From positions 3,594,501-3,658,500 of the forward strand of contig NZ_CP087952.1 of the NCBI RefSeq assembly GCF_028752835.1: 64,000 nt of DNA, written 5' to 3'. Numbering within the stretch: position 1 is the first letter of the stretch; every line of letters starts with the position of its first letter. The translations under genes and the position numbers were made by a program. This DNA comes from Desulfosarcina sp. BuS5. Lineage in GTDB: Bacteria > Desulfobacterota > Desulfobacteria > Desulfobacterales > BuS5. Shown one piece after another: positions 15,790 through 24,689 of this stretch. The notes under the pieces are model-generated. The model was given only the letters and a program-made list of their open reading frames with translations, was not told the origin of the DNA and searched no databases.

Positions 15790-17299
15790 ATGGTACATGT
15801 TATCAAAGGCACTGTAGCTGCTCAAAAAAAACACTCTTCTGAGATTGAACAATGTTTGGATAGTTGCAAAGAAAAGTTCAACCAAATATTGCTTGGTGTT
15901 CTCAACGAAGGAAATCAGGATGCTCATAAAATGGAAGCATCAATTTTCAAGCAATTGATGAAGTTGGGGTTTATTTTAATGCAGTTGTTCTTTGCTATCC
16001 AAAATAAAGGTAATTATGGTAAAATAATAGAAACCGCACAAGGAATTGCCAAAAGAGGCAGAACAAGTGTAAAGTCATATTTTTCAATTTTTGGAAAGAT
16101 GAAAGTGGCTCGCTATCTTTATCATATAGAAGATGTAAGTTTTGTGCCTTTAGATATTGTATTAAATCTGCCAGTACGTTGTTACTCATATTTTTTATCC
16201 GAATTCGCTAATTTACTGAATATTAACGGAGCTTATAAAAATACATCCGAACTTTTAACGAAGTTTTTTGGTGTAAAACTTTCAATTTCAGCTTCGGAAA
16301 TTATTTCCAGTGAAAGTTCAGATTGTTATGAGGATTATTATGATCTAAAAAACAGACTTCCAAAGCTGGAAAGCGAAGAAGATTATGTTGTAGTTAGCTT
16401 TGATGGCAAAGGCGTACCGATGATTAAGGCAGAAGCAGCTAAAATCGTAGTAAGACAAGGTAAAGGAAAAAAAGCAGAAAAAGAAAGAAGCGTTGGTGGG
16501 AGTTAAATATGATGTTAATGCTAATGTCCGAATTGCTAAAGAAGTTGCTACTAACCTGGTATATCCGGATAACAAAGAAGATAAAAATGAAACCGATAAA
16601 CCAGTAAAAGCCCAAAACATCAGATATATAGCCAGCGTTGAGAAAACCAAGAAAAAAGTAATGGAGGAAATCCATGAAGAAGTAAAAGGTGAAAACTTCA
16701 ATGGCAAGCCATTGGTTTGTGTAATGGATGGAGCATTGTATTTATGGACTTTGTTTAAAGATGTTTTTAAAGATATAGAAAATAAAGTTCTTATTTTAGA
16801 TATTATTCATGTTCTGGAATATATTTGGATTATTGCCCATATAAAGCACAAAGAAGGAAGTGCTGAGAGCAGAAAGTATGTATATAATAAGCTATTGCTC
16901 ATACTACAAGGAAAGGTCGCTTCATATATTATGGAGTTGCAGAAAGAAATGTTGAGCAAAAAGTGGGAAAAAGTCCAAAATGATAAATTTTTAAAAGTAA
17001 TAACCTACTTGAAAAACCATAAAGAATATATGAACTATGATCAGTATCTATCAAAAGGTTATCCAATAGGTTCCGGTGTTGTTGAATCGGCCTGTAGTCA
17101 CATAGTTAAGGATAGAATGGAAATATCAGGTGCCCGGTGGGGAATTAACGGATCAGATTCAATTCTGAAATTACGCTCAGTGGCAAAAAGTAAGGATTGG
17201 GATGAATACTGGGAATTTTTCACAGCACAAGCTCAAAATAATATATTTTTTCCTGATAAATATAACTTGATAAATGTACAGAAAAAAATGGTTGCTTAA
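15790..17299 (+). pseudogene. ISKra4-type transposase split by a frameshift
   Basis: The first frame (15790-16506) gives the N-terminal part with VVVSFDGKGVPM, the first catalytic Asp region. The second (from about 16470 to 17299) continues EALVGVKYDVNANV, LVCVMDGALYLW, ILDIIHVLEYIW and PIGSGVVESACSHIVKDRME, all ISKra4 hallmarks. The frames join at an A-rich run near 16460-16490 with a one-base offset. This could be decay or recoding. GGAGG precedes the ATG at 15790. Element ends are not resolved, but the right end is near 17331 where host sequence resumes. Confidence 0.78.
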
Positions 17300-18363: not shown

Positions 18364-19884
18364 ATGTTTATTAAAAGATTTCCTAATATAACAGAATTCA
18401 GAAGACTTGCTGAAAAGCATAATGTGATTCCGGTATCTGTTGAAATTCTTGCCGATACGGAAACACCGGTCTCTATTTTAAAAAAATTATATAATAATGA
18501 TGGGCCTATTTTCCTGTTCGAGAGCGTGGAGGGGGGCGAACGATGGGGCAGATACAGCTTTATCGGCGCTTCTGCCCGCTGTAAAATAAGAATTTATTCA
18601 ACATTTGTTGAAATTGAAGAAAAGGGTTCCTCAAAACATATCCCCCATCATGGAGATCCTCTATCAATCCTGAGGAATTTTATGAAACGCTTTGTCCCTG
18701 CGGATGTCCAAGGCCTCCCCAGGTTTTGGGGTGGTATGGTTGGTTATTTAACATATGAAATGGTTTCATTTTTTGAGAAGATCCCGAATAATATGCCGGA
18801 AGACAAGCCCTTGGCCAATTTTATAATACCTGACGAACTGCTGATATTTGATAATATCCGTAATACGTTAATGGGATTGTCAGTCGTTTTTTTAGAACGT
18901 AATTACACAAGGGATGAAATAGATACCTTATTTAAATCCGCCAATAAAAAGATACTCTCTATACTTGATACAATAAATCAGTCAAAACAGGAAGAATATG
19001 AATATCCGGAGAGCAAAGATTACAGTCTTAAGCCTGTTAAGAGTGACGATGAATACAGGGGATATGTAAAAAAAGTAAAGGAATATATCCTTGCCGGAGA
19101 TGTTATTCAGACTGTCATAGCGCAGCCGTTTGTATCTCCCGATACACCTGACCTGTGGCATCTGTACCGCGCTCAAAGATATGTCAATCCTTCTCCCTAT
19201 CTTTATTTTATGCATATGGACGATATGGCTCTGGTCGGGTCATCTCCGGAAACAATGGTGCGCCTGGAGGATGGGACAGCCAATCTGCGTCCCATCGCGG
19301 GAACACGCCCCAGGGGATCGGATAAAAAAGAAGATGACAACCTGGCTGAAGAGCTGCTTGCAGACGAGAAAGAAAGGGCGGAGCATCTTATGCTGGTTGA
19401 TCTCGGGCGTAATGATCTGGGAAGAGTTGCTCAAACAGGCACTGTTAATGTGACTGACCTTATGATTGTGGAACGGTATTCCCATGTAATGCATATTGTA
19501 TCGAATATTACCTGTAAGTTAAAGCGGGATTGCGATGCCTGGGATCTTGTTAAGGCGACTTTTCCGGCCGGAACTTTGTCCGGCGCGCCCAAGGTTAGAG
19601 CCATGGAGATAATATCCGAACTGGAAGATGAACCGAGAGGTCCTTATGGAGGAGCAGTCGGTTACATATCTTTTAACGGCAATATGGATTTGGCCATAAC
19701 AATAAGAACTGCATGTATTGAAAACGGCAGGCTGACCGTGAGAGCGGGAGCCGGGATTGTGTATGATTCAGATTCTGAAAAAGAGAGGGTTGAGACTGTA
19801 AATAAGGCCATGTCCATCCAGAAAGCTTTGGAGCTACTGAAGTATGGATCAGGCCGACTGGATCAAGGGAGTGAAAAATTATGA
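18364..19884 (+). CDS. trpE: Anthranilate synthase component I
   Basis: TrpE, 506 residues, makes anthranilate from chorismate using ammonia from TrpG. The chorismate-binding half is clear: NPSPYLYFMHMDD, LVGSSPETMVRLEDG, PIAGTRPRG, VDLGRNDLGRV, FPAGTLSGAPKVRAMEII and IRTACI near the end. The N-terminal domain ends with the hinge near residue 220. Its stop overlaps the trpG start (ATGA). First gene of trpEGD; trpCFBA are not in the window. Confidence 0.96.
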   Translation: MFIKRFPNITEFRRLAEKHNVIPVSVEILADTETPVSILKKLYNNDGPIFLFESVEGGERWGRYSFIGASARCKIRIYSTFVEIEEKGSSKHIPHHGDPLSILRNFMKRFVPADVQGLPRFWGGMVGYLTYEMVSFFEKIPNNMPEDKPLANFIIPDELLIFDNIRNTLMGLSVVFLERNYTRDEIDTLFKSANKKILSILDTINQSKQEEYEYPESKDYSLKPVKSDDEYRGYVKKVKEYILAGDVIQTVIAQPFVSPDTPDLWHLYRAQRYVNPSPYLYFMHMDDMALVGSSPETMVRLEDGTANLRPIAGTRPRGSDKKEDDNLAEELLADEKERAEHLMLVDLGRNDLGRVAQTGTVNVTDLMIVERYSHVMHIVSNITCKLKRDCDAWDLVKATFPAGTLSGAPKVRAMEIISELEDEPRGPYGGAVGYISFNGNMDLAITIRTACIENGRLTVRAGAGIVYDSDSEKERVETVNKAMSIQKALELLKYGSGRLDQGSEKL

Positions 19885-20447
19885 TCGTAATGATTGACAA
19901 TTATGATTCATTTACTTACAACCTCGTGCAATATTTGGGGCAGCTTGGAGCAGATGTAACGGTTTTTAGAAATGATGCAGTAACAATTGAGGAGATTGTT
20001 GCTCTATCTCCTTCTGGAATAGTGATTTCTCCTGGTCCCGGCAGGCCGGAATCCGCTGGATTGTCTGTTCCTGCGATTCAGTATTTTTCCGGCAAAATAC
20101 CAATTCTGGGAGTCTGTCTCGGGCACCAGTCGATAGCCTTTGCTTTTGGCGGTAAAATTGTTCCGGCCAAATATATAATGCATGGTAAAACCTCTATAGT
20201 AAAATCAGACGGAAAGATTTTATATAAGGGTCTGGAAAAACAATTCGCGGCAATGAGGTACCATTCTTTGGCTGTATCACGGGATGTCTTGCCGGATTGC
20301 CTTGAAATAACGGCGGAATCGGATGATGGAGAGATTATGGGCTTAAGACACAAAAAATATTTTACAGAAGGGATCCAGTTTCATCCGGAATCTATAATGA
20401 CAGCCGCAGGCATGCGGCTTTTAGAAAATTATTTGAATTATGTTTAA
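19881..20447 (+). CDS. trpG: Anthranilate synthase component II (glutamine amidotransferase)
   Basis: TrpG, 188 residues, class I glutamine amidotransferase that feeds ammonia to TrpE. It opens MIVMIDNYDSFTYNLVQYLG. The nucleophile Cys is in LGVCLGHQSIAFAFGG; the His-Glu pair is in EGIQFHPESIMT. SPGPGRPESAG forms the oxyanion region. It overlaps trpE by 4 bp and trpD by 8 bp. Confidence 0.96.
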   Translation: MIVMIDNYDSFTYNLVQYLGQLGADVTVFRNDAVTIEEIVALSPSGIVISPGPGRPESAGLSVPAIQYFSGKIPILGVCLGHQSIAFAFGGKIVPAKYIMHGKTSIVKSDGKILYKGLEKQFAAMRYHSLAVSRDVLPDCLEITAESDDGEIMGLRHKKYFTEGIQFHPESIMTAAGMRLLENYLNYV

Positions 20448-21450
20448 AAAATATCTTAATCAAATTATCAGTCGTACAGATCTGAACGAAACAGAGATGT
20501 ATACCATGATAACGGAAATTTTTTCAGGTAATATTACGGATGCCCAGATCGGCGCATTCATGGCTGCTTTGGCGACCAAGGGGGAGACATTTGAAGAGGT
20601 TGCCGGAGCCGCAAAAGCGATGCGTGACAAGGCGCGTCATATTAAAATATCAGGTTTTGAAGTAATAGATACCTGCGGAACCGGAGGAGACGGCGCCGAA
20701 ACATTTAATATATCCACCACAACGGCTTTTGTTGTGGCCGGGTGCGGGTTAAAAGTAGCCAAACATGGCAATCGTTCTGTTTCCAGCAGGTGCGGGAGCG
20801 CTGAGTTGCTTGAAATTCTGGGAGTAAAAATTGACGCTGATCCTGAAACTGCGGCCAGGGCGGTTTCGGAAATCGGAATAGGCTTTTTCTTTGCTCCCCT
20901 GTTTCACGGCGCCATGCGATATGCGACTAAAGCAAGAAAAGAGATCGGGGTTCGCTCAATATTCAATATGATCGGACCCTTAACCAATCCGGCCAATGCG
21001 GATCGTCAGCTAATAGGAGTTTATGCGCCGGAACTGACCGGGCTGATGGCCAATGCTCTTAGGCTGCTTGGCAGCAAGCGGGCTTTTGTTGTGCACGGAC
21101 ATGACGGCCTTGATGAAGTTTCAGTCTGCGCTCCCACTAGGATTTCAGAGTTGAAAGAGCACAAGATCAAGACTTATGATGTTTTTCCGGATGAGTTTTT
21201 CAGTACATCCGCAAAACCTGAAGATATTATGGGAGGAACTCCCAGGGAAAATGCAGAAATTACGCTTCAAATTCTTAATGGAGAAAGCGGTCCAAAACGT
21301 GATATTGTAATATTAAATGCCTCCTTTGCTCTGGTTGCGGGGGGTAAGGCAAAAAATATTTCAGAGGGCATTCTGCTTGCATGCTCTTCCATCGATAATG
21401 GGTCTGCCATACGAAAGCTGGATGAGCTTGTACGGTTTTCGCAACAATAG
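20440..21450 (+). CDS. trpD: Anthranilate phosphoribosyltransferase
   Basis: TrpD, 336 residues, transfers the phosphoribosyl group of PRPP to anthranilate. Diagnostic blocks are VIDTCGTGGDGAETFNIST, KHGNRSVSSRCGSAELLE, FFFAPLFHGAMRYA, RSIFNMIGPLTNPA and VVHGHDGLDE. ATG at 20440 overlaps the end of trpG. PRPP would come from prs at 28986. Confidence 0.96.
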   Translation: MFKKYLNQIISRTDLNETEMYTMITEIFSGNITDAQIGAFMAALATKGETFEEVAGAAKAMRDKARHIKISGFEVIDTCGTGGDGAETFNISTTTAFVVAGCGLKVAKHGNRSVSSRCGSAELLEILGVKIDADPETAARAVSEIGIGFFFAPLFHGAMRYATKARKEIGVRSIFNMIGPLTNPANADRQLIGVYAPELTGLMANALRLLGSKRAFVVHGHDGLDEVSVCAPTRISELKEHKIKTYDVFPDEFFSTSAKPEDIMGGTPRENAEITLQILNGESGPKRDIVILNASFALVAGGKAKNISEGILLACSSIDNGSAIRKLDELVRFSQQ

Positions 21451-21480: not shown

Positions 21481-22359
21481 ATGTCGTTATTTTTTTTAAA
21501 ATTTAAATTTAAATTAATTGTTTTTATAAACAACAGTAGAGTAAAAGATAATATTTTGGGCGACTCTGTTATAACAAAAAATCCTTTTTCTATTCTTGGC
21601 GGACTGGTTCTGTTGCTGCTTCAGGGGATAGGGAGAACATCTATTTTTTTTATAAAAGGTTTTTTCTCCATATTTTTCCCGCCGCTGCAGTTTGCAAAAG
21701 TCCTGGAGCAAGTCTATTTTATAGGGGCGAAATCTATTTTTGTTATTGCTCTTACCGGAGCTTTCACGGGCATGGTTTTGGGACTTCAAGGTTATTATAC
21801 ATTGGTGAAATTCGGCTCGGAAGGGATGCTTGGCGCTGCTGTGGCCTTGTCTCTGATCCGTGAAATGGGACCCGTACTGGCGGCGATTATGGTAATCGGA
21901 AGGGCCGGTTCCGCCATGGCGGCCGAAATTGGAATTATGCGTATCTCAGAACAAATCGATGCTCTGGAAACCATGGATATCGATCCGGTGCGATTTCTTT
22001 TCAGTCCCCGGCTTACGGCTGCTATAATCAGTTTTCCCATTCTGACGGCTCTTTTTGATGTTATCGGTATCCTGGGCGGGTACCTCACCGGATCTCTCCT
22101 GCTTGGTATAAATTCCGGAATCTATTTTGCGAGGGTGGAATCCAGCGTTGTAATGGATGATGTTTCCGGAGGCTTTATTAAATCTATAATTTTTGCCATG
22201 GTGGTTGTGACAATCTGTTCTTCCCAGGGGTATTATACCCATACCAGGACAGATGGATTCGGGGCCAAAGGGGTAAGCCTTTCAACAACATCGGCAGTGG
22301 TTATTTCCTGTGTGCTTGTCCTTGTTACAGACTATGTACTGACATCTTTTTTGATATAG
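21481..22359 (+). CDS. mlaE: MlaE-type lipid transport permease
   Basis: Inner-membrane permease of the Mla phospholipid ABC transporter, 292 residues with five or more hydrophobic segments. Family blocks: GAFTGMVLGLQGYYTLVKFG, IREMGPVLAAIMVIGRAGSA, EIGIMRISEQIDALETMDID and ISFPILTALFDVIGILGGYL. The first about 25 residues from ATG 21481 are Lys/Phe-rich and unusual; the true start may be a downstream TTG near 21555. It is 7 bp before mlaF. Confidence 0.92.
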   Translation: MSLFFLKFKFKLIVFINNSRVKDNILGDSVITKNPFSILGGLVLLLLQGIGRTSIFFIKGFFSIFFPPLQFAKVLEQVYFIGAKSIFVIALTGAFTGMVLGLQGYYTLVKFGSEGMLGAAVALSLIREMGPVLAAIMVIGRAGSAMAAEIGIMRISEQIDALETMDIDPVRFLFSPRLTAAIISFPILTALFDVIGILGGYLTGSLLLGINSGIYFARVESSVVMDDVSGGFIKSIIFAMVVVTICSSQGYYTHTRTDGFGAKGVSLSTTSAVVISCVLVLVTDYVLTSFLI

Positions 22360-22365
22360 ATAATT

Positions 22366-23601
22366 ATGGATCAACCGTTGATACAATTTAAAAATGTTTG
22401 CAAAAAATTCGGTCAAAATGTTGTCTTGCGCAATGCAAATTTAAACATATACAAGGGAGAAATAACAACCATTATAGGAAAAAGCGGAGGCGGTAAAAGT
22501 GTGCTTCTGAAGCATATTATCGGTCTGATGGAACCTGATTCAGGACAGATTCTTTTTAATGGGCGGCAGGTTTCGGAGATGGATAAAAAAGAGCGGCATA
22601 AATTTAAAAAAAAATTCAGCTATATGTTTCAGGGTACGGCCCTATTCGATTATATGACGGTTTTGGACAATATTGCCCTTCCTCTTCGTGAAACAACATC
22701 TATGCGTGAATCTAAAATCCTGGATCAGGCGCACAATATGCTGGCGCAGCTCGATCTCCATGAAATTGACGACAAATATCCGTCACAGCTTTCAGGAGGT
22801 ATGAAAAAACGTGTGGCCATGGCACGTGCTTTGATTACAGAACCGGAAATTGTTCTTTTTGATGAGCCTACCACTGGTCTCGACCCGATACGGAAAAATG
22901 CGGTACACAGCATGATCTCCGGTTATCAGAAAAAGTTTGAATATACAGGGGTGCTTGTAAGTCATGAGATACCGGATATTTTCTATATTTCCCAGAGGGT
23001 TGCAATGCTGGATAACGGAACCATACTTTTTGAAGGCACAGCCGATGAGCTCCAGAGGTCGGCAGAGCCTGAAATTCGGCAGTTTATACATGGTTTTGAC
23101 ATAAATATAAAGCAGGACAAGCTGACCGGTATGGGGACAAAAATAGATGTCGACCAGAGCTTCATGGAGTCAATGGAGAGGCTTCAGGAAGATAAACTTG
23201 TATTTTCCATTATCATTTTTTATGTTGATAATATGGATAAAATCAATGAAACGGCAGGACATGTTGCCGGTCAGACTGTAGTCAAGAATTTTTCGATACA
23301 GTTAAAAGAGTGTCTCAGGTTTGGGGATACATGTATAAGATACGGATTGGACAAGGTTTTATTAATTTTACCGGGAGCAAACAAGGCTCAGGCCCAGGAA
23401 TTCTGCTCGAAACTGGCAGACAAGGTAAAATGGAATAAATATACGGAACTGCTGTCTTGCAAGGGACTTCGCGTATCAATCAGCGCCGGTCTGGCAGAGG
23501 CTGACAAACTGAGTCGTTTTGATCATTTACTTTCATCAGCAGAATTACAAAGGATCAGACTGGATGAATTTTGTGCTATATCTGAAGCGGAGGCGCCATG
23601 A
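22366..23601 (+). CDS. mlaF: MlaF-type ABC ATPase fused to a degenerate GGDEF-like domain
   Basis: Residues 1 to about 245 are a complete MlaF ATPase: Walker A GKSGGGKS (38-45), signature QLSGGMKKRVAMARAL (141-156), Walker B IVLFDEPTTGLDP, and switch His 200. MlaF proteins are normally about 250-270 residues; this one has 411. Residues about 251-395 follow GGDEF-domain order: DKLTGMGTK, YVDNMDKINETAGHVAGQ, RYGLDKVLLILP, VSISAGLAEA. The active-site GGDEF reads GLDKV, so cyclase activity is unlikely. No mlaB (STAS) gene is present. Stop overlaps mlaD (ATGA). Confidence 0.88.
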   Translation: MDQPLIQFKNVCKKFGQNVVLRNANLNIYKGEITTIIGKSGGGKSVLLKHIIGLMEPDSGQILFNGRQVSEMDKKERHKFKKKFSYMFQGTALFDYMTVLDNIALPLRETTSMRESKILDQAHNMLAQLDLHEIDDKYPSQLSGGMKKRVAMARALITEPEIVLFDEPTTGLDPIRKNAVHSMISGYQKKFEYTGVLVSHEIPDIFYISQRVAMLDNGTILFEGTADELQRSAEPEIRQFIHGFDINIKQDKLTGMGTKIDVDQSFMESMERLQEDKLVFSIIIFYVDNMDKINETAGHVAGQTVVKNFSIQLKECLRFGDTCIRYGLDKVLLILPGANKAQAQEFCSKLADKVKWNKYTELLSCKGLRVSISAGLAEADKLSRFDHLLSSAELQRIRLDEFCAISEAEAP

Positions 23602-24059: not shown

Positions 24060-24689
24060 ATGACTCTGAACAAAATAATACGGGTATCTGTTTTGCTTCT
24101 CCTGGTCGCTTTTGTTTCAATGGCTTATGGCCGGCAGCCGCTGGAAACGTTGAAGCCGCCTATTAATAATATTCTCATGATACTTAAAGACCCTCAATAC
24201 AAGGATGCCTGTAAAAAAAACCTGCAACGTGACAAAATTTTTGAAATAGTGCGTGGTTTGTTTGATTTTCCAACAATTACAAAGCTGGCTCTCGGAAAAT
24301 ACAGGAAGTCCTTTACGCCTGAACAGTTGAAGGATTTAACCGATGTTTTTACCGACCTCCTTGGCAAAACATATATCAATAAAATGCTTTCGGAATTTAA
24401 CAATGAGGAGGTTCTTTATATAGCCGAGGATATGCTGACCGCAAAAAAAGCAATTGTAAAAACCAAGGTCCTCCGGGAAAAAGGTGAAATGGCGGTGAAC
24501 TACCGAATGCATCTTCACGGCGGAGTCTGGTCTGTTTATGATGTAAAGGCGGAGGGTGTGAGCCTTGTAAAAAATTATCGCACGCAGTTCAGTCAAATTC
24601 TTTTTAAGGAAAAGCCTGAGATATTGATTCAAAAACTCCAGGAAAAATTAAAAGGACAAGAGACAGAAACCGATGCTTCACAGCCTTAA
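24060..24689 (+). CDS. mlaC: MlaC-type periplasmic phospholipid carrier
   Basis: 209 residues with a signal peptide ending near residue 25 (LLLVAFVSMAYG). The MlaC/Ttg2D domain shows FDFPTITKLALGKYRKSF, LTDVFTDLLGKTYINKML, VNYRMHLHGGVWSVYDVKAE and VSLVKNYRTQFSQIL. It shuttles phospholipid between MlaA and MlaFED. AGGAGG precedes ATG 24060. The end overlaps mlaA by 17 bp. Confidence 0.94.
   Translation: MTLNKIIRVSVLLLLVAFVSMAYGRQPLETLKPPINNILMILKDPQYKDACKKNLQRDKIFEIVRGLFDFPTITKLALGKYRKSFTPEQLKDLTDVFTDLLGKTYINKMLSEFNNEEVLYIAEDMLTAKKAIVKTKVLREKGEMAVNYRMHLHGGVWSVYDVKAEGVSLVKNYRTQFSQILFKEKPEILIQKLQEKLKGQETETDASQP

Follow-up and report, generated by a model that had tools for sequence, protein, structure and literature searches.

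A catalytically dead GGDEF-fold domain on the MlaF ATPase of an MCE-type phospholipid transporter in Desulfosarcina sp. BuS5

The mla operon of Desulfosarcina sp. BuS5 poses the question of why the ATPase of a phospholipid transporter should carry a C-terminal domain resembling those of cyclic-di-GMP signalling, and what such a domain could do there. The transporter concerned helps to maintain the outer membrane. To our knowledge little is understood of how MCE lipid transporters are regulated; in E. coli, MlaB and the tail of MlaF are the elements known to influence the ATPase. The window analysed here is a stretch of 64,000 nucleotides containing the operon, and its first-pass annotation had proposed a fusion of MlaF to a degenerate GGDEF domain that might stand in for a missing MlaB or allow a nucleotide signal to gate phospholipid transport.

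The fusion gene and its operon

Between mlaE and mlaD lies the gene for MlaF, which serves an MCE-type phospholipid ABC transporter as its ATPase and here ends in a catalytically dead GGDEF-fold domain (Table 1). The open reading frame is unbroken, with the Walker A motif GKSGGGKS at residues 38-45, the signature LSGGM at residues 142-146 and a Pfam ABC_tran match on residues 21-170 (E 3.5e-37). Methionine in the ABC signature is typical of Mla-like MCE ATPases (PMC7367683). Membership of the MlaF type is indicated by this signature, the other ABC ATPase motifs and the match to solved MlaF chains, as well as by the company of mlaE, mlaD, mlaC and mlaA in the order mlaE-F-D-C-A. The NCBIfam MlaF equivalog model PRK11831 scores 186.8 bits, under its cut-off of 441, which weakens assignment as an E. 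coli-type MlaF equivalog but not the broader assignment to the MlaF-like ATPases of MCE transporters.

Similarity to solved MlaF structures ends at residue 243-244, and the domain and tail that follow extend to residue 411. This region scores 61.3 bits with the Pfam GGDEF profile PF00990, well over the gathering score (curated cut-off) of 23.8 bits, and it also matches solved GGDEF domains. The motifs of a GGDEF domain follow one another at the correct spacing: DKLTGMGTK (251-259), YVDNMDKINETAGHVAGQ (286-303), RYGLDKVLLILP (325-336) and VSISAGLA (370-377). Both the fusion itself and the GGDEF nature of its C-terminal part, as first annotated, are thereby borne out.

Table 1. Features of the mla operon and of the fusion protein (window coordinates; residue numbers are those of the fusion protein)
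Feature	Coordinates	Strand	Basis or remark
mlaE, lipid transporter permease	21481..22359	+	Pfam MlaE 255 bits; 292 aa, start codon putative
mlaF::pseudo-GGDEF fusion gene	22366..23601	+	411 aa
MlaF ATPase part, residues 1-243	22366..23094	+	likeness to solved MlaF chains, residues 3-244
GGDEF-fold domain, residues 250-393	23113..23544	+	PF00990 61.3 bits, E 1.2e-16
YVDNMDKINETAGHVAGQ, residues 286-303	23221..23274	+	aligned to the window genome's own GGDEF domains
RFGD, residues 318-321, c-di-GMP I-site-like RxxD, canonical spacing	23317..23328	+	
GLDKV, residues 327-331, where GG(D/E)EF is expected	23344..23358	+	
mlaD, 149 aa	23598..24047	+	Pfam MlaD 80.7 bits; 4 bp overlap with the fusion gene
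mlaC	24060..24689	+	Pfam MlaC 142 bits
mlaA	24673..25461	+	Pfam MlaA 222 bits

The mlaE product, the single MlaE of the whole window genome, has no STAS domain. The operon lies downstream of trpE, trpG and trpD (18364-21450, same strand), which are found immediately 5' of mlaE in the examined genomes of the genus, and it is possible that the tryptophan and lipid-transport genes are co-transcribed. Elsewhere in the window, an open reading frame with a TTG start (16493-17299) resembles, as an impression from its sequence, the C-terminal half of a transposase and is perhaps an inactive insertion element.

Distribution and ancestry of the fusion

A second copy, 93% identical and in the same gene context, occurs in an independent metagenome-assembled genome labelled Desulfobacterales, so the fusion is no assembly artefact. 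This genome was the only match in a scan of genome contigs. When the full protein was searched against whole genomes, and a fusion was counted where the match ran through both domains, at least 95 of the 389 genomes of the order (about 37 family groups) contained it, as did 37 more genomes (12 family groups) outside the order but inside the phylum. The fusion is therefore not restricted to one strain, and an assembly error or strain-specific oddity is ruled out by the independent copy together with this spread. Two fused copies are present in several genomes. Matches from a class-wide search all came from the same order, and searches of plasmids and of viral contigs returned no fusion. No published description of an MlaF-GGDEF fusion was found in a literature search that left out preprints and many subscription journals; the combination appears to be new, and its architecture may already be catalogued in domain databases. 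Its parts are of known kinds, namely MlaF, a degenerate GGDEF domain and a C-terminal regulatory domain on an ABC ATPase.

The 79 fused proteins extracted for comparison divide into clade A (52, of which 46 form a core) and clade B (27). In one gene cluster (L080, G511:C15:1-12000), mlaE, a clade-B fused mlaF, mlaD, mlaC and mlaA are followed by a clade-A fused mlaF, so that one cluster holds two different pseudo-GGDEF MlaFs. At two other loci (L068, G171:C1:5854500-5870000; L107, G128:C110) a fused mlaF is found with no other mla gene recognised nearby, and these are possible orphan ATPases. Besides the mla genes themselves, no recurrent extra partner gene was found near the operon, and the top neighbourhood clusters were shadow reading frames lying over mla genes.

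In a tree of MlaF from which the extra domain was left out, all rows, fused or not, fall into a single clade (99% SH-aLRT), within which the unfused rows are nested at four or more well-supported separate positions. The fused GGDEF domains cluster apart from 32 ordinary ones of the same order (97%), which is consistent with a single origin. Both trees were quick reconstructions and lend the ancestry support rather than proof. Remnants of the domain are visible in DNA: in a genome of the same genus (G002) it has gone by an in-frame internal deletion that spared the final codons of the gene as well as its ATGA overlap with mlaD, while in G131 a stop lies just after the linker and the domain's last residues, LYEFRVC-stop, can still be read before mlaD (L036:1657-1730). 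Nested unfused rows and DNA remnants together point to repeated loss from a fused ancestor, so that the fusion can be taken as ancestral here and lost several times. A recent gain within the window genus, which was also considered, is rejected on account of these losses and of the fossil in relatives. In a further genome (L035, G116) the domain is missing, and the gap between mlaF and mlaD is filled by short repeats in tandem, with the form CACCTAACACCTGA, possibly a trace of how the domain was lost.

Loss of the cyclase site and the residues conserved in its place

The fused domains were aligned to the ordinary GGDEF domains of the window genome, using PleD numbering for the catalytic residues; one misaligned reference row (L124) was disregarded. 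In the window protein the metal-binding D327 is replaced by tyrosine (Y286) and the guanine-binding D344 by glutamine (Q303), and N335 is retained as N294. These changes are general. None of the 79 domains keeps D327, mostly having threonine or serine instead, none keeps the second glycine of the GGDEF motif or an intact motif, and D344 has become glutamine in 61 of the 79. Position 370 is asparagine in 48 of 79; position 371 is lysine or arginine in 42 of 52 clade-A domains and glutamate in 19 of 27 from clade B; R366 is retained in 76 of 79. The residues that define an active diguanylate cyclase (D327, GG(D/E)EF and D344) are thus missing from the window protein, an active cyclase is rejected as very unlikely, and cyclase-like binding of metal and guanine by the fused domains is very unlikely from the residues present. 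The doubt first voiced over cyclase activity is justified both here (Y286, GLDKV, Q303) and across the family.

The residues that took over are themselves conserved: in clade A, columns 303, 321, 325, 327 and 329 are all among the 22 best conserved of 161. Domain dN/dS is below 1 in all pairs with usable dS and mostly lies at 0.04-0.38, roughly double the value for the MlaF part; the window pair, with little divergence, gives 0.35, and three very close within-genus comparisons, where dS is very low, give 0.45-0.66. Consistent replacement residues and dN/dS below 1 indicate that the domain is not in random decay: it is under continued purifying selection. The same evidence bears on whether the domain is a passive remnant, a former cyclase fusion now drifting to loss with no current role. 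Clean losses have indeed been repeated, and some copies score at or barely over the profile cut-off (G611 at 23.7 bits, G114 at 27.7 bits). Such a remnant is nonetheless improbable, since dN/dS is well below 1 in many pairs, a specific set of new residues is conserved across many families and open reading frames are maintained across the phylum.

Sensing of c-di-GMP, or of another nucleotide, at the RxxD I-site would allow a dead GGDEF domain to gate lipid transport, for which PelD and BcsE offer precedents as degenerate GGDEF domains that sense c-di-GMP via RxxD (PMC7439463). The window protein has RFGD at the canonical position, the aspartate (D321) is found in 46 of 52 clade-A domains and the window genome encodes four strong GGDEF cyclase candidates. 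GGDEF proteins were present in all 12 further fusion genomes checked, so a lack of c-di-GMP offers no means of discrimination. A shared function should, however, preserve the motif, and RxxD persists in no more than 30 of 46 core clade-A domains and in none of the 27 of clade B, compared with 25 of 28 ordinary GGDEF domains. Conservation in the fused family therefore does not centre on the I-site. Nor did a cognate EAL or PilZ gene turn up repeatedly in the neighbourhoods of the fusion, and a nucleotide receptor of this kind is considered unlikely.

What clade A conserves most strongly is cysteine, which after background correction occupies the top four columns (323, 405, 347 and 369). Cys323 is present in 44 of 46 core members and in one of 28 ordinary GGDEF domains, and cysteine is about 17 times commoner in the fused domain than in the MlaF part. 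A thiol- or metal-sensing domain, giving redox- or metal-responsive control of the transporter in these anaerobes, could be imagined on these grounds. Yet all four cysteines occur together in only 21 of 52 clade-A domains, clade B retains mainly the C-terminal one and the excess over ordinary GGDEF domains is less than 2-fold. The window protein has cysteines at 323 (23332-23334), 347 (23404-23406), 365 (23458-23460) and 403 (23572-23574), so that two of the four are displaced in the window genus from the positions (369 and 405) that they hold in most relatives. The chances of a dedicated thiol or metal sensor accordingly appear slim.

Taken more broadly, the phylum-wide presence of a dead GGDEF domain on a lipid ATPase might reflect a genuine signal input that couples phospholipid traffic to the state of the cell without MlaB. 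Under this joint and tentative reading, rated unlikely, some lineages would respond to c-di-GMP through the I-site, or the rebuilt active site would receive another ligand or a thiol signal.

A candidate role at the MlaF dimer

Replacement of the STAS protein MlaB was the function first suggested for the domain, on the argument that it would be required where mlaB is missing. The absence of mlaB is confirmed: the window operon contains no STAS or mlaB gene and no mlaB-like gene was found elsewhere in the genome, whose only two STAS_2 matches lie in chemotaxis-type clusters. The domain, moreover, sits where E. coli MlaF has the segment in contact with MlaB (PMC7367683). Across about 70 genomes, however, no STAS_2 gene was found inside the mla operon whether MlaF was fused or unfused, and the unfused same-genus genome G002 likewise has no mlaB in its operon. 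MlaB is also sparse in diderms and is absent from Veillonella parvula, whose transporter works without it (PMC10665443). The presence of the domain does not track the absence of MlaB; since mlaB is missing in fused and unfused operons alike, its absence does not explain the fusion. MlaB replacement is thus unsupported as the cause, and a functional stand-in for MlaB has little probability. One family (G071, G180) has a STAS gene on the opposite strand, at a distance of about 3 kb from the operon. Many of these genomes also contain a second MCE system (L126-L129 and L132, e.g. L126:4036-5211 in G002:C15), in which STAS is in frame with MlaE and N-terminal to it in a protein of about 385-440 aa, and the MlaF of this system, where found, has no GGDEF domain.

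The explanation that best accommodates the data is a non-catalytic accessory domain that pairs or regulates MlaF ATPases, a proposal judged to stand at about even chances. In E. coli, the C-terminal extension of MlaF (residues 247-269) reaches around the partner MlaF; without it MlaF is non-functional, and an unrelated dimeriser, GCN4, in its place largely restores function (PMC7367683). Other ABC ATPases bear regulatory C-terminal domains, that of MetN being ferredoxin-like (PMC7367683). The fused domain and the E. coli extension share their starting point (QFIHG|FD here, QFLDG|IA in E. coli), from which we infer that the domain pairs or regulates MlaF subunits. Two domains, one per MlaF, would touch each other, or else the partner MlaF, below the nucleotide-binding domains, and this contact would stabilise the MlaF dimer and its attachment to MlaE or modulate both. 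The role would parallel that of the short 'handshake' extension in E. coli, with a mode of action comparable to that of the regulatory C-terminal domains in MetN, MalK or ModC. An AlphaFold model built from two near-identical sequences reached a pLDDT of 31.

In unfused relatives the domain is missing and no E. coli-like extension is obvious, so that pairing of MlaF evidently requires neither. Its clean removal in many relatives that retain the operon makes the domain more probably a modulator than an indispensable structural part. The conserved polar residues and cysteines may also serve to bind a ligand or to provide a thiol function, for which dimerisation alone does not account. A folded extra domain occupies the exact position of the E. 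coli tail in many families and has been naturally deleted in close relatives, and the window genome and G002 provide a natural pair, with and without the domain, for the study of MlaF pairing and the control of its activity.

Several known systems share part of this arrangement. E. coli MlaF in MlaFEDB (PDB 6xgy/6xgz, 6xbd) is a homologous ATPase with the same LSGGM signature, encoded with mlaE, mlaD and mlaC, whose extra C-terminal part begins at the same residue; that part is an unfolded extension of about 23 residues accompanied by a separate MlaB, whereas here it is a GGDEF-type domain of about 150 residues with no MlaB. V. parvula MlaEFD also functions without MlaB but differs in its shorter C-terminal extension, with no GGDEF domain reported, its long MlaD and its lack of MlaA and MlaC. 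The 'ammonium transporter' chains 8qj3 and 8qpf, known here from a sequence match to the PDB chains, likewise combine a transport protein with a GGDEF-type domain, although the protein is a channel or transporter and not an ABC ATPase. In PelD and BcsE a catalytically dead GGDEF domain again serves an envelope transport system, and the window protein shares their RxxD; unlike those c-di-GMP receptors, in which the motif is conserved, the fused family does not conserve it and carries the domain on an ATPase. MetN (ferredoxin-like), MalK and ModC (both TOBE) similarly bear an extra C-terminal domain on the ATPase, and a role in dimerisation or activity would be common to all; the domain described here, with its putative regulatory role, differs in being GGDEF-derived and in belonging to an MCE lipid transporter. 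With this fusion, the ABC ATPase joins the sites at which a dead GGDEF domain has been reused.
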